Origin: Paenibacillus assamensis DSM 18201
GTDB lineage: Bacteria > Bacillota > Bacilli > Paenibacillales > Paenibacillaceae
DNA length: 64,000 nt
Reading direction: 5' to 3'
Assembly: GCF_000422445.1 (NCBI RefSeq)
Contig: NZ_AULU01000003.1
Coordinates: 434,001-498,000, forward strand
Made by a program: the position numbers and the translations under genes. This document shows, piece after piece, positions 1,821 to 50,747 of this stretch; positions within the stretch are counted from its first letter, which is position 1, and every line of letters starts with the position of its first letter. The notes beneath the pieces were generated by a model that did not search any database, was not told the DNA's origin, and worked only from the letters and a program-made list of their open reading frames with translations.

Positions 1821-3485
<1,665 letters not shown>

Positions 3486-3980: not shown

Positions 3981-4082
3981 GTAGTAAGCCAGCATTTTTT
4001 ATAATAAAAATGCCTTGCGAGCCTATCCGTCACGTTCCGACACCGCTTACGAACACCTTCACCATCATACCCGAAAACGTAC

Positions 4083-11590: not shown

Positions 11591-11866
11591 AAAAAAACAG
11601 GCCTGCCATCTCCTAAGAGACGACAGACCTGCCGCGGTACCACTCTTGTTGGAACACGTCCTGGCTGCATCAACAGCCGCGCATTCCCCCTTATCCTCAT
11701 AACGGCGAGGTTCCGGAACGGCCTGCTCCAACTTGTCGCATGTTGCGACAGCTACTATCAGCCACTCTTGCTCCCAGGCGAGTTCAAACGTCTCCCTACT
11801 GCGTCGCACCGACCCGCAGCTCTCTGTAAGGCAGTATCACTCTACTACTCCTGTTCATTGCGTGTA
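11591..11866 (-). ncRNA. T-box leader 1 (leucine specifier), proximal to leuA
   Basis: Minus strand, in order: stem I with AGAGAG and GGTGCGAC motifs, specifier-loop segment GAACTCGCC with CTC (Leu) at 11780-11782, the T-box AGAGTGGTACCGCGG (about 11633-11646), and a terminator hairpin (11598-11631) with a run of seven T. The hairpin ends about 50 nt before the leuA start. Uncharged tRNA-Leu should favour the antiterminator and permit leuA transcription. I see no strong promoter directly upstream, so read-through from the distal T-box unit is likely. Confidence 0.93.
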
Positions 11867-12315
11867 TTTATGTTCGTTTCATAAGCTATCGGTTATATAT
11901 TGAAGCTGTTTTGCCATACTGCTTGTTGTAAGTAACTTATACATTTGATTCGTTGATGTGCTGTTCATTTGTCCGTTTATCGTGGATTGTTGATGAAAAA
12001 TGTCTTTCCAATAGTGGACAGTCTTTTGTTAAAAGATATAGTCTGCTCAGACTTTCGGTCTACCATATACAGCACATCATTCGAAATTAGACACCACATA
12101 TAGCTAGGATTTTATTTGGAGCAGCTAACAACTACATTGTGCCTGGTGTCCACCTTTTTATAGACATTTCAGTATATTGTCCACGTTAGAAGAACAAATT
12201 TTCTAGTCGAAGCATGAATGAAGCTGGGTTTTATTTTTGATTCATCTTCCCTCTTCTGCTCAGAATCAGAACTAGTACATTCAATTTAGCAGTTCAGTCC
12301 CTCATACATACAAAA
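11867..12315. other. 450-bp spacer between the two T-boxes, no gene seen
   Basis: This AT-rich stretch has no convincing coding frame on either strand and no recognisable tRNA or riboswitch. It contains several loose DnaA-box-like words (for example TTGTCCACG near 12178) with two or more mismatches. It would lie inside the leader transcript if the distal promoter drives leuA. Confidence 0.5.
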
Positions 12316-26184: not shown

Positions 26185-26844
26185 TTAGGACCACTCCGCT
26201 TCTCTTATTCGCTCCAAACCAGTAAGCATAGTTTGCGACTGCATCTTGTTCCACCATGTATATGCTTCTCTTGCTTCCTTGCCATTACGAGGCGAAGGTG
26301 AAGTCGTAGATGGCCTCCTATCAGCAATACACTGTACATATTCGGCTACTTGATCCTTCATCGTATACTGAAGGCGATGCCAACCTGCCAGCGCTTGCTC
26401 CAATGCTGCACACCGTTCACCATGCTCCGTCCCTATAGCTAGCGGAAGCGGACGATGCAGCAATACAGGAGGCACATATACAACATCTCCCGAGAAACGT
26501 TGAGACTGATTCAGCTGTTGCCGCATCATCGTTGTCGTTCCAGGCTGTACTTCAGCCGCAATGACAACGAGTGCATGTTCAGCTACATGAGGCAGCAGCC
26601 ATTCCACGAGCGAATGTGGATCAAGTGAAGTAGACGCGCTCCTATTGACGAAAAAGAGTACATCTGAGCGCTTCACTGCATACGAAGCATTGATCGTACA
26701 CAGCAGCCGATCTCCTAGTTCCTGCCGCCATCGTTCTGCACATGGTGCGCTATTCGCTACGAGCCATACATCGTGCTTTAAGCCAGCAAGTCTAATGGCC
26801 AATGACAAGCCTTGGAGATCCCCACCTAGCACAGCGCATCTCAT
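26185..26844 (-). CDS. truncated nucleotide-sugar dehydrogenase-like protein (NAD domain only)
   Basis: The ~219-residue protein aligns by eye with the N-terminal Rossmann half of UDP-glucose dehydrogenase: CAVLGGDLQGLSLAIRLAG replaces the usual GxGYVG loop, SDVLFFV corresponds to ADVIFIAV, and VVIAAEVQPGTT to the VTKSTVPVGT strand. The central and C-terminal domains with the catalytic Cys and UDP-sugar site are absent, and the Gly-rich loop is altered. It probably has no dehydrogenase activity. Intact coding length, ATG with AGGAGG, and 1-nt spacing to the LCP gene argue against a dead gene. Confidence 0.7.
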   Translation of the reverse strand: MRCAVLGGDLQGLSLAIRLAGLKHDVWLVANSAPCAERWRQELGDRLLCTINASYAVKRSDVLFFVNRSASTSLDPHSLVEWLLPHVAEHALVVIAAEVQPGTTTMMRQQLNQSQRFSGDVVYVPPVLLHRPLPLAIGTEHGERCAALEQALAGWHRLQYTMKDQVAEYVQCIADRRPSTTSPSPRNGKEAREAYTWWNKMQSQTMLTGLERIREAEWS

Positions 26845-26871
26845 CACCTATCCTCCTATAATTGATAGTTG

Positions 26872-44282: not shown

Positions 44283-45617
44283 TCACCCACCTGTCTTTTC
44301 AGAAAGAAGTACGTTAGTTTTCAATTTTTGACGCATCAGGGCTTTCATACAGTTACGCCAAGCAATTCCCGCCAGCAGCAAGGATAAGAAATTCGAAACA
44401 AGCAGTGTATAGCCTGTACTTTGCATCGGCATATCCAGAGCTGTCACCGCATATTGCAGCACAACGGTTATAAGCACCGTACATAAATGAATAACAAGTT
44501 GCGCCCGGAACACTCTTGCAGCGGTCAAAGCAAATCCAAGCAACGAACCGAGACAACTAAAAGCGGTTGAAAGCGTGAGGATCAGGAACAAGTCACTATA
44601 CTGTGCATAATCTGCTCCATACAAAATAGTTAACAACCACGAGCCCAGTAACCAGCTTCCAAGGGTCATGCCCATTCCAATTGCACCGATCATATACGCA
44701 GCCTTCCGTAGTAGAGCACGAAGCGCATGGCGATCAACTGCTGACCACGCTCTTGCAAGATGTGGGCTAATGCTTTGCCCGAGGGCTGAAACGACTGTAG
44801 TAGCTGCCACCATCACATACATGAGAGCAGAGAAATAGCCAAGCGCAGCTTCTCCATACGCATCCGAGATGAAATAGCGAGGCACGTTCGCTTGCAGAGA
44901 TACAAGCATCATAACGATCCCCATCGGCCAACATTGCCGCAATAGCTGCAGGCCTGCCCGTCTGCTTCCACTCCATGAAAAACCTTCGAGCCGCCTTGCT
45001 CTCGGTATATCAAAGACAATTAATATGCCGCCCCATGTTAACGCGTATACCGTCAAAGCTGCGAGCAAACTTTCGGTGTAAAGATAGGCCCCGCCAAATA
45101 AAGATAAAGACAGCAGCCCACGCAGGATGAGAGACTGTGCACTCCAATCCATGCGATGATGCTGCTGCCACCAGCCATACAATAATTCGCTAATCGATTC
45201 GAACCATTTTGATAGGCCGATTAGTATAATAGCAATACATGTTTCCCAGCTTGACATATATATCGCCGCACATCCAAGTGTAGCAATCAACGCCAAGCAA
45301 GAACTAACAACACGGAGCTGAACGTAAACACCACTAGCGTATACCTGCTCTGTATCCGTAGCTAGTATCCCTCGCAGCTGCATATTGGTAAATAAAAAAA
45401 TAGGTGCGCTAATCGCCAAAGCTAGCGAAAATACACCTACATCTTCCACAGATCCACGCTGTGCCAATATGATCAACAACGCCCACTGACAAGCAGCGTA
45501 CAATACATTGCCTGTAAGCGTCCACGAGAACAGATGCCATAAGGAAGTCCGTCGTGTGTGCGCATGATGATCCGCCCCTGCGATGCGCTTGCCCCGTCTA
45601 CTTAGAAGACTTCCCAT
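44283..45617 (-). CDS. Wzx-type oligosaccharide flippase
   Basis: The 444-residue protein has about 12-14 hydrophobic helices and the start pattern of MATE/Wzx flippases (SWTLTGNVLYAACQWALLIILAQRGSVEDVGVFSLALA), followed by polar residues inside helices. It would move undecaprenyl-linked repeat units across the membrane for the polymerase. AAAAGGAGAG precedes ATG. It is 18 bp after the EpsC-like gene and 3 bp before the polymerase gene. Confidence 0.9.
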   Translation of the reverse strand: MGSLLSRRGKRIAGADHHAHTRRTSLWHLFSWTLTGNVLYAACQWALLIILAQRGSVEDVGVFSLALAISAPIFLFTNMQLRGILATDTEQVYASGVYVQLRVVSSCLALIATLGCAAIYMSSWETCIAIILIGLSKWFESISELLYGWWQQHHRMDWSAQSLILRGLLSLSLFGGAYLYTESLLAALTVYALTWGGILIVFDIPRARRLEGFSWSGSRRAGLQLLRQCWPMGIVMMLVSLQANVPRYFISDAYGEAALGYFSALMYVMVAATTVVSALGQSISPHLARAWSAVDRHALRALLRKAAYMIGAIGMGMTLGSWLLGSWLLTILYGADYAQYSDLFLILTLSTAFSCLGSLLGFALTAARVFRAQLVIHLCTVLITVVLQYAVTALDMPMQSTGYTLLVSNFLSLLLAGIAWRNCMKALMRQKLKTNVLLSEKTGG

Positions 45618-45635: not shown

Positions 45636-47576
45636 TTATACCAAAGACAACTTCTTCTCTCTCCAATCGACAACTGCTTGCTTTTCATCCTGATCCGTAC
45701 ATACCGTCGCTGCAACTTGATTTGTAAATCCATCTTCGTTAGGCAGCATATAAGTCGGGATAAGCCGCTTCAGTGCTTCACGTATAGGCGGATTCTCTTC
45801 ATTGAGTATTTCTTTTATAGCGACGACTTCCTCTTCAAGTACTTGCTGCGGTACGATAGGTGGCCGTCCCACAAAAATACGCGAATGCTTCGTTACATTT
45901 AATCCTTCTTCCGCTGTCAGCATCTCTTCAAACAACTTCTCACCTGGTCGTATACCTGTGAATACAATAGGGATATCCACGTCAGGCTCATAACCGGACA
46001 AGCGTATAACCGCTCTAGCCAAATCTACAATCTTAACGGGCTCACCCATGTCGAGTACGAACACTTCTCCACCCTCTGCATAAGCTCCAGCCTGCATAAC
46101 AAGCTGAACGGCTTCAGGTATGGTCATAAAATAACGGATCATATCAGGATGTGTAACCGTGACAGGGCCTCCATGTTGAATCTGTTCTTTGAACAACGGA
46201 ATGACACTGCCGCGACTACCCAGCACATTGCCGAATCGAACAGCGGCGAATACTGTCGAGCTTTGTTTGCTTAAACTTTGAATATACATTTCAGCTGCGC
46301 GCTTCGTCGCTCCCATAACACTTGTCGGATTGACCGCTTTATCAGAAGAAATAAATACGAAACGATCTGCACCATAGCGGTGAGCTGCCAGCGCAACATG
46401 GATCGTACCAAATAAATTGTTTTTCACTGCCTCCGATGGATTGCGCTCCATTAATGGCACATGCTTATGAGCTGCTGCATGGAATACAACCTGCGGCTCA
46501 TAAGTAGCAAATATGCGATCTATCCGCGCTGCGTCTTTCACATCTGCAATGACCGTTTCCAATTTCAGTTTAGGATACTTGGAGCGCAATTCGCGCTCGA
46601 TGACATAAATGCTGTTCTCCCCTTGTCCGAGCAGCAGCAAAGCATTCGGCTCAAAATGAGCAATTTGCCGACAAAGCTCTGAGCCTATCGAACCTCCTGC
46701 TCCGGTAACAAGCACCGTTTTCTCATGCAAATAGGTAGAAATATGACCCATATCAAGACGGATTTGCTCTCTTCCAAGAAGCACTTCAATATCGACATCA
46801 CTAATTTTATTAATCGTGACTTTTCCTTGAATCAGATCATTCAACAGCGGAATCATCCTCACTCTTGCTTTCGTCGCGATACAAATATCGACGATAGGCT
46901 TCAACTGCGACATGGAGAGCGATGGGATGGCAATGACGATAACTTCAACGTTATACTCCTCCACAAGTTGGGGAATATCCCGCAGCATCCCAGCCACTAG
47001 AACCCCATGAATTTCACAATGAAGCTTGGAAATGTCATCATCTACGATACATATCGGTTCCATCGGCTCAAGAAAAGTAGATTTCTGTTTAAGCATTTCT
47101 CTTGTTATAAGACTGCCGCAGCTTCCTGCTCCAACAACGAGTGTCCTCGTTCGTTCGGATTTCATATTTGAGTGTTCACGGCCTGTACGCACTTGGATCA
47201 ACCGTCGTATAAATCGAATTCCACCAATTCCAAGAAGCATCGTTTCCAACAAGGATAGAATAATACCAACCGACATATTGCCACCCAAACACAACCATGT
47301 AACACAAAAGGCGATCAATACACTTGTACAGAGCGCCTTAACGATGGAATATAGTTCTCCTACACTTGCATACTGCCATACTCGATGATAGAGCTTGCCT
47401 ATGTATAAGCTTGCTAGCGAGAAGATGACTGTTAATCCTCCGAACAGCATTCCGTGCGGCATAAACTGCTCTTTCCATTCGCTCCCGTATTGCAAATAAA
47501 AAGCGAGAACAATACTACTACTGACGACTGCTGCATCCAGACTCATCAGAACGAATAACCGCTTGGCTTTGTTCAT
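45636..47576 (-). CDS. membrane-bound UDP-HexNAc 4,6-dehydratase (EpsC/PglF-like)
   Basis: The 646-residue protein has four N-terminal membrane helices (about residues 8-125), a CoA-binding-like Rossmann segment (TLVVGAGSCGSLITREML near 145) and a catalytic SDR domain: VLVTGAGGSIGSELCRQ near 291, FHAAAHKHVPLME, ISSDKAVNPTSVMGATKRAAE. The active site has Met-x3-Lys in place of Tyr-x3-Lys, as in PglF-type dehydratases. It should make UDP-4-keto-6-deoxy-GlcNAc for the EpsN-like aminotransferase. It follows the epsB-like gene after a structured 255-bp gap. Confidence 0.94.
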   Translation of the reverse strand: MNKAKRLFVLMSLDAAVVSSSIVLAFYLQYGSEWKEQFMPHGMLFGGLTVIFSLASLYIGKLYHRVWQYASVGELYSIVKALCTSVLIAFCVTWLCLGGNMSVGIILSLLETMLLGIGGIRFIRRLIQVRTGREHSNMKSERTRTLVVGAGSCGSLITREMLKQKSTFLEPMEPICIVDDDISKLHCEIHGVLVAGMLRDIPQLVEEYNVEVIVIAIPSLSMSQLKPIVDICIATKARVRMIPLLNDLIQGKVTINKISDVDIEVLLGREQIRLDMGHISTYLHEKTVLVTGAGGSIGSELCRQIAHFEPNALLLLGQGENSIYVIERELRSKYPKLKLETVIADVKDAARIDRIFATYEPQVVFHAAAHKHVPLMERNPSEAVKNNLFGTIHVALAAHRYGADRFVFISSDKAVNPTSVMGATKRAAEMYIQSLSKQSSTVFAAVRFGNVLGSRGSVIPLFKEQIQHGGPVTVTHPDMIRYFMTIPEAVQLVMQAGAYAEGGEVFVLDMGEPVKIVDLARAVIRLSGYEPDVDIPIVFTGIRPGEKLFEEMLTAEEGLNVTKHSRIFVGRPPIVPQQVLEEEVVAIKEILNEENPPIREALKRLIPTYMLPNEDGFTNQVAATVCTDQDEKQAVVDWREKKLSLV

Positions 47577-47594
47577 GCTATGAATCGTCCTTTC

Positions 47595-47825
47595 TTCCCT
47601 TTTGACCTATTAAAAGATACAGCTATGTCGTTTAAGCCATACCATGTCGTAAACGACACAACTCTCTCTTTTACAAGAGCCATAGGGCATTTAACCCTTC
47701 CTCACATCGCACCACCGACGATATACGTCTAAGGCGAAATTTCGCCCACAGCACGACCGAGTACCTCCAATGATATAGGTGTAGGAGATATTACCTTACC
47801 TGCGAAAATAATCACAAGCGATACT
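47595..47825 (-). ncRNA. candidate EAR-type RNA (eps-associated antitermination element)
   Basis: The 255-bp gap lies exactly between the epsB-like and epsC-like genes, where B. subtilis eps carries the EAR RNA that promotes read-through of the long operon. The minus-strand RNA can form many stems: CTCC/GGAG (about 47765-47790), palindrome GGCGAAATTTCGCC (47733-47746), GACG/CGTC (about 47717-47730), CTCTT/AAGAG (about 47665-47680) and TGTCG/CGACA (47644-47657), the last in competition with a longer 9-bp pair TGTCGTTTA/TAAACGACA (47626-47658). No frame or promoter is obvious. Position and structure support the call; the EAR consensus itself was not checked. Confidence 0.6.
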
Positions 47826-47831
47826 AGCCAA

Positions 47832-48557
47832 TTACTTGCTTGTAGCAGACATCTTTAACCCTTGTTGGGATCGAGCCCCTTTTTTCATCCATTTCTTATC
47901 CATATGTTCTTCGCTCGCATTCAGTACCGTGCCAAGGATATGAGCGTGAACGCGTTCCAATTGAGATTGCGCCTGCTGCAGTGCCTTCCATTTGGTCTTG
48001 CCAGGTTGGACAACGAGCAGCACACCATCTGAGCGGACCGCAATTTGTTTCGCTTCATTAACGAGCAGCACCGGCGGTGCATCGAACAGCACGATGTCAT
48101 AGGCTTCACGAGCTTGTTCAATAAATTGATCGAACTGAGAAGAGGCCAAAATTCTACCTGGATCATCCAAGAGATCTCCCGCACTGATGAGGTCTAAGTT
48201 GTGAATCGATGTTTCCTTCGCAAATTGTGACGGGGGAGTTGAAGTCTGTAATAACTGAAGCAATCCTTTTGAACCATCCATGCCAAACACTTCATGCAAA
48301 CGAGGCCTTCGAAGATCCCCATCGACAAGCAGCACTTTTTTGCCTTCTGCGGCAAAGGCCACAGCTAGATTGGATACGGTCGTCGTTTTTCCCTCACTCA
48401 AACGTGACGATGTAACGGTAATCACACGCGGTGCCCACATCTCTTCTCCTCGCTGCACGAACTGCAACTGCGTACACAGAGAGCGGTAAGATTCAGCAAT
48501 GGGAGAAAAGGGCTGCCGTTCCATAATCCGCGCGTACTTATCACTGAGTCGTAACAT
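47832..48557 (-). CDS. CpsD/CapB-type ATPase (EpsB-like) of polysaccharide assembly
   Basis: The 241-residue protein belongs to the BY-kinase family that works with Wzz-type activators. It has ESYRSLCTQLQF, Walker A SEGKTTTVSNLA near residues 52-63, Walker A' VLLVDGDLRRPRLHEVF near 76-92 and Walker B YDIVLFDAPPVL near 148. The C-terminus (HMDKKWMKKGARSQQG) has no tyrosine cluster, which normally carries autophosphorylation. ATG 48557 follows AGGAGG by 8 nt and overlaps the upstream Wzz gene by 17 nt. No CpsB/YwqE phosphatase gene is nearby. Confidence 0.93.
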   Translation of the reverse strand: MLRLSDKYARIMERQPFSPIAESYRSLCTQLQFVQRGEEMWAPRVITVTSSRLSEGKTTTVSNLAVAFAAEGKKVLLVDGDLRRPRLHEVFGMDGSKGLLQLLQTSTPPSQFAKETSIHNLDLISAGDLLDDPGRILASSQFDQFIEQAREAYDIVLFDAPPVLLVNEAKQIAVRSDGVLLVVQPGKTKWKALQQAQSQLERVHAHILGTVLNASEEHMDKKWMKKGARSQQGLKMSATSK

Positions 48558-49302
48558 AAGCATCCCCTCCTGATGTTGTCTGTCTTTGTCTCGACGCTCT
48601 ATCATGCTTAGTGCGCACATGCTTCCGATTCATCTTAGGAATAACAGCCAGCGTTGTAAGACCCGTTGCCAGTTCAATATCTTCCTCGGTGTACACACTG
48701 TCGTCGAAGAACGAAATGACAAGTGCCAAACTAATCCCTGCAGCAAATGCAGCGATAGCAGCGATAATGACGTTCATGAGTCGATTCGGCTTAATAGGGC
48801 TTGGCTCCGCATTTTTATCCGCTGAGGTTAATAAAGTGACATTGTCGACGTGCATGAGACTTGGTATTTTGGCAATAAACAGAAGCGTAACTTCATTGGC
48901 AAGCCGTGCTGCCATCTGGTAGGACTCATTTTCTACGGAGATCGTTACCACTTGTGTATCGTTCGTAGAAGACACCTTAATCATGGAGAGCAATTGAGCT
49001 GTCGTATAAGGGATGTCAGTATTTTTACGCAGTACCTCTTTTAAAATCCAATCCGTACGAATTAACTCTTTGTAAGTTTGTATCAACTTAATGTTTGCAT
49101 TAAGTTCATTAATGTTGATGGTCCCTTGCCCTTCTTCGAATTGCGTCTTATTGACAATAAATTTGGTAGATGCTTGATAAACAGGCTTTAGTACCAAATA
49201 GCTGTAATAAGATGAAGCAATTATGCCGATAACTACAAAGAAAGCTATTATCCCCTTTCGCTTCCATATCGTCTGCAGCATATGTTTAAGATCGAGTTCC
49301 AT
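48541..49302 (-). CDS. Wzz-type chain-length/activator protein (EpsA-like)
   Basis: The 253-residue protein has the Wzz topology: a short cytoplasmic N-terminus, membrane helix at about residues 18-40, an extracytoplasmic middle with FIVNKTQ and NIKLIQTYKELIRTDWIL, and a second helix at about 175-200 preceded by the Pro-rich PSPIKPNRLMN. It regulates chain length and activates the following ATPase. It is the first gene of the exopolysaccharide operon, with AAGGAGG upstream of ATG. Confidence 0.92.
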   Translation of the reverse strand: MELDLKHMLQTIWKRKGIIAFFVVIGIIASSYYSYLVLKPVYQASTKFIVNKTQFEEGQGTININELNANIKLIQTYKELIRTDWILKEVLRKNTDIPYTTAQLLSMIKVSSTNDTQVVTISVENESYQMAARLANEVTLLFIAKIPSLMHVDNVTLLTSADKNAEPSPIKPNRLMNVIIAAIAAFAAGISLALVISFFDDSVYTEEDIELATGLTTLAVIPKMNRKHVRTKHDRASRQRQTTSGGDAYVTTQ

Positions 49303-49638: not shown

Positions 49639-50100
49639 CTATATTTTCCATGCACTTTCATATATCGTTCTCAGTACTTGATCACTTGCTCGTTGATACA
49701 TCTCATGAATGCCCTTTTGTGTTGGCATCATACGAACCAACTCATCATTAAGCAAACGCAATAAGCGCGAACGTTCTTCAGACTGAAGCTGAAGACGAAT
49801 CCCGTAGCAGATTAAATGTTGATTAGCATCACACCATACTACACGGCCATACAGCATGATTTCCTCTTCATGTAAACGAAGCTTGAAGCTCAGAACATAA
49901 TCACGTTCATGCTGGAGCGGCAAATCTAGATGTGAGAACATATACAGTCCATAAGGACTTACAGAGGTGACTAAGACAGGACATGTAAGAGAAGAATGTA
50001 CCGGTTGCTGGTTGACGAGTTCAACGCCCATAGACGCTAATACGGGACGCTTTAAGGTAAGCCTTAAACTTAAATGATGAGGAAACCCATTTATCGACAT
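49639..50100 (-). CDS. PilZ-domain-like protein
   Basis: The ~153-residue product from ATG 50100 (AAAGGGG upstream) has a PilZ-like core: VLVTSVSPYGLYMFSHLDLPL near residues 40-60 resembles the D/NxSxxG motif, followed by beta strands and GRVVWCDANQHLICYGIRLQL near 82-102. The usual RxxxR c-di-GMP motif is not clear; RLTLKR near the N-terminus is only approximate. It lies upstream of the exopolysaccharide operon on the same strand, a reasonable place for c-di-GMP control of secretion. Binding remains uncertain. Confidence 0.7.
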   Translation of the reverse strand: MSINGFPHHLSLRLTLKRPVLASMGVELVNQQPVHSSLTCPVLVTSVSPYGLYMFSHLDLPLQHERDYVLSFKLRLHEEEIMLYGRVVWCDANQHLICYGIRLQLQSEERSRLLRLLNDELVRMMPTQKGIHEMYQRASDQVLRTIYESAWKI

Positions 50101-50372
50101 GGTTGTATCCCCTTTACTAAGAAAAAAATAGATCACGGAGCCGATGATGAGTGTTGGTGAGCGCAAATTGCGATACATTTTGTAGAATACTATTGGGATT
50201 AGAAGGTTAATTTTGATACGATTTGTAACTTTTCACTTCTTTACTTTACGATACATAATGTAGCATGTCAATCCTTTTTAAGTTCTATTTTTTAATTGAT
50301 GCCTTCAACGATACATTTCGTCACGTAACAATAAAAATGTTAACAGTTACCCGCCACAGAGGAGGAAGCAAG

Positions 50373-50747
50373 ATGACAACTGGGAATCGAATATCACAGT
50401 TAAGAGAGTCAAAAGGGTGGACTCAAGAGGAACTTTCCAACAAGTTAGGTATTACGAGAGCAGCATTGTCTCATTATGAGAAAAATCGACGTAAACCGGA
50501 CTTTGAGGCACTTACACAATTAGCGGACTTATTCGAGGTATCGATTGATTATCTCGTTGGTCGTACTTCTCTTCCTCAAATGGAACTTTCACCAGAAATC
50601 CAGGCTTTTACTGAGCATTTGGAATTGGCTGAAGAGGAAATACTCCAACGTTTCAAATTAACGGTAGATGGGGATGAATTAACCGAAGAGGAAGCGAGAC
50701 GATTCATCGCCTTTGTACGAGCTGAACGTTTCATGCGCGGCAACTAA
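50373..50747 (+). CDS. XRE-family (SinR-like) transcriptional regulator
   Basis: The 124-residue protein has an N-terminal helix-turn-helix: RISQLRESKGWTQEELSNKLGITRAALSHYEKNRRKPDFEALTQLADLF in residues 6-54. It is followed by an acidic segment and a C-terminal helix with EEEARRFIAFVRAERFM, which could dimerise, as in SinR-type proteins. ATG 50373 has GAGGAGG 7 nt upstream; the longer frame from 50265 is not used. It is divergent from the PilZ-like gene at the head of the exopolysaccharide region, so it may control that locus, though this is inference. Confidence 0.9.
   Translation: MTTGNRISQLRESKGWTQEELSNKLGITRAALSHYEKNRRKPDFEALTQLADLFEVSIDYLVGRTSLPQMELSPEIQAFTEHLELAEEEILQRFKLTVDGDELTEEEARRFIAFVRAERFMRGN

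Follow-up and report, generated by a model that had tools for sequence, protein, structure and literature searches.

The primary paper on the EAR element is reportedly that of Irnov and Winkler (2010), and the mechanism of the element is, to our knowledge, poorly defined. According to passages of a review (PMC7858274), the eps operon of Bacillus subtilis requires its EAR over its entire length, and antitermination by this RNA extends to distal as well as heterologous terminators. Excerpts of two further articles (PMC8955417, PMC11658703) count it among a small number of RNAs believed to modify RNA polymerase with no dedicated protein involved. The put RNA of phage HK022, which is described in the same excerpts as acting on RNA polymerase in this way too, is a phage element, unlike the RNA considered here. 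The conAn system of pLS20 and canT of Tn916 resemble EAR in being RNA-based systems of processive antitermination in long Gram-positive operons, but, as these excerpts have it, they reside on conjugative elements, and conAn also uses a protein. The JUMPstart/ops element with RfaH likewise controls elongation in polysaccharide operons, and JUMPstart is mentioned beside the epsC RNA in the available passages of Weinberg et al. (2010); it differs, however, in relying on a protein factor and a non-template DNA element (excerpts of PMC12691694).

The LoaP system with the dfn-type UNCG hairpin of B. velezensis is similar in layout, in that a small RNA hairpin and a leader terminator precede a long operon, and the polymerase passes the terminator once the elongation complex has been acted on (excerpts of PMC12691694). 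It requires a NusG paralogue that binds the hairpin, whereas the genome studied here gives a single match to the NusG family (PF02357, E ≤ 0.001). No LoaP-type factor is therefore seen in this genome at that threshold, and a LoaP-type hairpin was discarded as an explanation of the present locus.

The locus lies in a 64,000-nucleotide stretch of Paenibacillus assamensis DSM 18201, referred to as the window in the following. It is a non-coding gap near the head of an exopolysaccharide (EPS) operon, on the operon (minus) strand, and the analysis below leads us to consider it probable that this gap holds two consecutive RNA devices, namely a canonical EAR and, right behind it, a hairpin resembling an intrinsic terminator that would act as a gate. 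The positions of all features are collected in Table 1.

Table 1. Features of the gap and of the operon around it, with positions in the window.
Feature	Positions	Strand	Evidence or remark
Non-coding gap	47577-47831	-	255 bp; ORF list and sequence; flanked by epsB-like and epsC-like ORFs
EAR / epsC RNA (Rfam RF01735)	47684-47796	-	108.8 bits, gathering threshold 42; full length, model 1-117
EAR pseudoknot strand 1, AGGU	47793-47796	-	pairs with 47777-47780; model positions 1-4
EAR pseudoknot strand 2, ACCU, in P1 loop	47777-47780	-	model positions 17-20
EAR P1 hairpin	47762-47790	-	stem 47784-47790 / 47762-47768
EAR P2, enclosing P3 (47732-47747) and P4 (47717-47729)	47701-47761	-	covariance match and fold
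EAR P5 hairpin, 3′ end of EAR	47684-47698	-	covariance match and fold
EAR-adjacent terminator-like hairpin	47611-47673	-	14-bp core 47650-47663 / 47621-47634; 22-pair stem
U-rich tract UAUCUUUUA	47611-47619	-	6 U of 9; imperfect, interrupted
"14-bp palindrome" TGTCGTAAACGACA, plus-strand letters	47645-47658		in 5′ arm and loop of the long hairpin
Probable ribosome binding site GAAAGGA of the epsC-like gene	47588-47594	-	sequence; inference
EpsC-like nucleotide-sugar dehydratase (Polysacc_synt_2)	45636-47576	-	Pfam PF02719, 407.8 bits
EpsB-like putative tyrosine kinase (AAA_31)	47832-48620	-	Pfam PF13614, 62.4 bits
EpsA-like chain-length regulator (Wzz)	48541-49302	-	Pfam PF02706, 64.4 bits
EPS operon, 21 co-directional ORFs	25149-49302	-	ORF list and Pfam

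The setting agrees with what an earlier note, made from the sequence alone, had described. The gap measures exactly 255 bp between two minus-strand ORFs, and the spacing of the operon is otherwise tight, the next largest gaps in the run being 162 and 136 bp when ORF starts are taken mechanically. The operon of more than 20 genes corresponds to a run of 21 co-directional ORFs in the ORF list, which is probably transcribed as a single unit and in which Pfam recognizes Wzz, Wzx/Wzy-like proteins, glycosyltransferases, sugar-nucleotide enzymes and LytR-CpsA-Psr; the ORF at 44283-45617 falls just below the flippase cut-off (27.0 vs 28.2 bits), and the ORF at 26185-26847 has no Pfam match. The placement between epsB-like and epsC-like genes is borne out by PF13614 upstream and PF02719 downstream of the RNA, the designation of the former product as a tyrosine kinase being suggested by the AAA_31 domain together with the Wzz neighbor.

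Other features were observed in the window. Directly upstream of the operon, 336 bp before the Wzz gene, a PilZ-domain gene of the c-di-GMP receptor type is found (49639-50178, minus strand). Three direct copies of ATGTATCGY on the minus strand (50170-50178, 50248-50256 and 50308-50316) surround the divergent starts of this gene and of an HTH_3 regulator gene (50265-50747, plus strand). The motif occurs seven times in the window against 1.1 expected, a number reached by none of 100 shuffles, and the HTH_3 protein may use it as an operator. The mechanical start of the PilZ ORF falls on the first copy, and the true start of this ORF may be further in. A T-box leader (RF00230, 114.2 bits) is present at 11613-11867 on the minus strand; a strong hairpin and its T run occupy 11596-11633.

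The search with the Rfam model RF01735 identifies the RNA on the operon strand of the gap at 108.8 bits, far above the gathering threshold, and at a single place in the genome, so that, as judged from sequence, its membership of the EAR family is near certain and the earlier note, which had proposed this search, was correct in naming EAR. All five EAR helices are present. The whole gap folds better than all of 200 dinucleotide shuffles (z −4.0), and the fold yields five EAR hairpins and one downstream, in line with the count of at least five given in the earlier note. A pseudoknot had been predicted earlier for the epsC RNA (PMC2864571, Figure 2 legend). The one located here, which joins the 5′ end to the P1 loop, is supported by covariation, which the earlier note had named as a check: across 82 dereplicated EARs, taken from an alignment of 159, the pair 1/20 has a covariation of 1.04 and is 94% paired, with AU in 43, CG in 19, UA in 8 and UG in 5 sequences.

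The proposal of a possibly divergent member, on the other hand, has to be abandoned. The window copy departs from the family at one position of at least 90% conservation, where G8 is replaced by A; pairing is maintained by a compensating U at the partner position C34. This single compensated change and the canonical score indicate that the EAR of the window is, in its sequence, canonical and not divergent, i.e., an ordinary new copy of a known RNA family, and a divergent EAR is excluded by the score and the conserved nucleotides.

A different reading of the gap, namely as a promoter region for epsC, would be suggested by its size alone. A consensus scan for sigma-70-like sites lists none for the minus strand within the gap, and the EAR match is full length. 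The empty scan speaks against a promoter of the sigma-70 kind, and we consider the promoter reading as a whole extremely improbable.

The hairpin behind the EAR starts at 47673, with ten bases separating it from the EAR 3′ end at 47684, and it is therefore not part of the EAR. Its predicted energy is −24.4 kcal/mol (z −6.35). The stem score of 41 is the best on the 24.6-kb operon strand (25000-49640), where 37 stems score at least 22 and the runner-up has 34. Over the entire minus strand of the window, only a hairpin running into TTTTTT ranks higher. A stable stem followed by a U-rich tract, by which intrinsic terminators are recognized, is found here, and the hairpin looks like such a terminator on this basis. 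A simple terminator scan, which admits only loops of 3-8 nucleotides, does not list it. The covariance model R1, introduced below, finds one place in the genome at E ≤ 0.01, which excludes the hairpin being a genomic repeat.

The earlier note had assigned a 14-bp palindrome and two mutually exclusive pairings near the 3′ end of the gap to the structured RNA. The pairings are in fact those of the separate hairpin 3′ of the EAR. The palindrome TGTCGTAAACGACA is an imperfect 6-bp inverted repeat around AA, which as RNA gives a small hairpin of −6.3 kcal/mol. The two pairings do exclude each other, because one arm is common to both, but the rival one exceeds the 9 bp described: a 14-bp core lies within a stem of 22 pairs.

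This mutual exclusion could be taken to indicate an attenuator/anti-attenuator switch, perhaps one linked to a ligand. However, the long stem is far more stable than the short palindrome (−24.4 vs −6.3 kcal/mol), and three copies of the same genus (L002, L006 and L013) have lost one or more outer pairs of the palindrome but preserve the long stem. In addition, a switch involving the EAR finds no support in the pairing of the hairpin arms with it. Compared with the mean of the EARs of 25 other loci, the 5′ arm pairs better with its own EAR in 14 of 26 loci and the 3′ arm in 11 of 26, i.e., in about half, in what is a weak test that uses ungapped duplexes only and EARs related to each other; within these 26 loci no pairing beyond chance is seen. 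The available passages of Weinberg et al. (2010; PMC2864571) list the epsC RNA as a riboswitch candidate and add that it may not be one, in view of antitermination activity reported to those authors. A conserved alternative pairing of comparable stability is absent, and an attenuator- or riboswitch-type switch was rejected on this ground; we regard it as very unlikely. Since the EAR and the hairpin do not overlap, both are able to coexist, and this, together with the lack of preferential cognate pairing, makes it unlikely that the EAR acts by refolding the hairpin.

The arrangement of an EAR followed by a hairpin is repeated in other genomes. EAR matches (E ≤ 0.001) were obtained from overlapping samples, namely in 42 of 60 mixed relatives, in 127 of the 197 genomes sampled from the family, in 135 of 198 from the order and in 61 of 398 from the class, a much wider occurrence than earlier described. 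The loci compared consist largely of the top-scoring EARs of the individual searches, to which 60 regions picked from lists were added. The resulting 163 loci were reduced to 159 by removing one duplicate and L249-L251 (weak EARs of the window's genus, 45.9-52.1 bits, with unplaced ends), and then to 95 by removing similar spacers. A stem was called strong when it reached a home-made score of at least 24 within the first 140 nt 3′ of the EAR.

With these thresholds, which were chosen after inspection of the data and tightened after a first look, strong stems are found in 56 of the 95 dereplicated loci, vs 103 of 1900 dinucleotide shuffles; the control regions give 9 of 95 just upstream of the EAR and 8 of 95 at +300 to +440. 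When a U tract is also demanded, 34 of 95 loci remain, vs 17 of 1900 shuffles, with 1 of 95 and 2 of 95 in the respective controls. As many as 53 of the 56 strong stems begin at most 60 nt from the EAR. The 95 loci span 22 families, 16 of which have strong stems and 12 U-tract hairpins. The first look (159 loci, 180 nt, looser criterion) had given 98 strong stems vs 6.9% of shuffles, with 20 of 159 upstream and 13 of 159 at +300-480, and 87 of 159 terminator-like hairpins vs 27 of 159 shuffles, which is the same trend, less sharp.

A strong adjacent hairpin is absent from 39 of the 95 loci. The window RNA resembles the described EAR in its full-length match, pseudoknot, conserved nucleotides and epsB-like/epsC-like placement, and differs from it in the terminator-like hairpin right behind, which EARs with top Rfam scores, e.g., L202, L203 and L207, do not have. 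These examples, which by their scores we take to be close to B. subtilis, indicate that EAR does not need the hairpin. In L007 and L259 (family f7), near-perfect hairpins of 26-27 pairs were noticed about 22-79 nt 3′ of the EAR; in these the T run is 5′ and the A run 3′, opposite to the order in a terminator. When the 95 unsplit spacers were subjected to a Gibbs motif search, only U-rich and mixed motifs emerged. A DNA-pattern scan of named genomes for an EAR core gave at least 80 records, most of which, among the matches listed, come from phyla unlikely to carry EAR and are probably due to chance; its 120 stretches were left out of all counts.

Within the order, families f1, f6 and f7 share a recurring hairpin sequence, [UAAAAA]NCGAGYUAUGYY..UUU - loop - AAA..RCAUARCUCG[NUUUUUA], giving a Paenibacillales consensus of CGAGYUAUG...CAUARCUCG-UUUUUA. 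An alignment of 26 such hairpins, A1, has changes on both sides in 16 of 24 pairs, a covariation that is partly circular and mostly restates that a hairpin forms, because the members were chosen for having a stem. The covariance model R1 was built on these same 26 hairpins. Over 36 whole genomes it gives 26 rows, corresponding to 11 sense places, the opposite strand of 7 of them, and 8 rows for five other places. All 11 sense places, which include all 10 of those with at least 48 bits, lie at most 90 nt 3′ of an EAR; 8 of the 11 are in the model alignment, and those in G013, G009 and G022 are not. Of 13 loci from the window's genus, R1 recognizes 7, of which 5 belong to its own alignment, and on 134 other loci it gives 13 sense matches at E 1 or better, several of them near-copies of model members.

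The five places elsewhere score 29.8-43.7 bits, and the Rfam search finds no EAR near them in the surrounding stretches of 2.8-10 kb. Three of the five are hairpins with T runs at gene ends. One, at 4005-4079 (+) of L295 in G001, a genome of the window's genus with no EAR match, lies beside genes recognized by eye as Cas-like (43.7 bits) and is probably an ordinary terminator. A further match of 37.3 bits, at 2057-2128 (-) of L297 in G021, was observed inside a cluster, where it separates two genes that by eye are galU-like and sugar-transferase-like, with no EAR found within the 4.1-kb stretch.

A second type of hairpin occurs in family f6, with cousins in f1, and reads UUUAAUUAU.UGGUCUUU...AAAGGCC.UAUACUUAAG. 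In the form UUUAAUUAUAUGGUCUUU...AAAGGCCUUAUACUUAAG it is present in most of L177-L201 and in others of f6, within about 20 nt 3′ of the EAR. It has no clear U tract, and the terminator reading does not explain it.

Such hairpins bring up the most serious alternative, according to which EAR works as described and the hairpin downstream is a stability or processing element, or a structural extension of the EAR, serving to protect or mature the mRNA 5′ of epsC. The f6 hairpins of, e.g., L177 and L196 end shortly before a stretch resembling a ribosome binding site. A core (C)UAUG...CAUAG is recognizable by eye in hairpins with and without a U tract. Moreover, by our criterion 22 of the 56 strong hairpins have no U tract and call for a different explanation, although at least four of these (L014, L019, L261 and L275) are A1 members with visible U tracts, which means that the criterion misses some. 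However, in the 26-member family of the window conservation is among the highest in the U-tract columns and exceeds that of the A side, and the R1 matches away from EAR include the three gene-end hairpins with T runs. We consider this alternative unlikely, with an appreciable residual chance of being right.

Less affected by this circularity than the paired changes in A1 is the asymmetry between the two sides of the tract. In A1 columns 88-91, 102 of 104 cells retain U, whereas in the partner columns 9-12 A is retained in 85 of 97; when seven columns are taken on each side (86-92 and 8-14), the numbers are U in 135 of 182 and A in 113 of 172. Within the tract, A-U pairs are replaced by G-U wobbles with the U side retained. 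This bears on another proposal, namely that the hairpin serves as a terminator in both directions or as an insulator, aimed chiefly at antisense or read-in transcription, and that EAR allows the transcript of the operon through. The antisense strand of the window does score with R1, at 38.8 bits, because the A tract and the U tract are complementary. The sense match at 47598-47677 reaches 64 bits, a value to be read with the window copy being in the R1 alignment, and is thus far above the antisense one; the U side is the better kept, but the two strands come close in a few loci (e.g., L274, 68.8 and 65 bits). We give this proposal very little weight, and relative to the gate it is a difference in emphasis only.

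In the favored reading, that of a canonical EAR with a gate terminator behind it, the EAR would fold during transcription into P1-P5 and the pseudoknot. On the basis of its published behavior in B. subtilis, we infer that it would then act on the transcribing RNA polymerase here as well, making it resistant to intrinsic terminators along the operon. The terminator-like hairpin ten bases on would be the first and strongest terminator met after the EAR. A polymerase lacking a folded EAR would halt there, before epsC, while an EAR-modified one would continue through the 19 ORFs from epsC onwards.

The open-access searches and the passages covered, including those of PMC10653937 and PMC4935679, show no report of an EAR-terminator pairing, the primary EAR paper being outside this scope. 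The adjacent hairpin as a new pairing is thus unproven, and the partner hairpin is under-described. We see it as an evenly balanced matter whether, in Paenibacillales and several other families of Bacilli, EAR is one half of a two-part module with a dedicated gate terminator right behind it, recognizable by sequence in Paenibacillales, so that expression of the rest of the operon would be conditional on EAR; the stem may even be tuned as an ideal EAR substrate.

The EAR call in the window alone is an ordinary annotation. If EAR and the hairpin travel together, they would constitute a compact natural unit, which measures 186 nt in the window, with which EAR action could be reconstituted in vitro. 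The pairing, if true, would suggest how a costly polysaccharide operon stays off unless EAR works.
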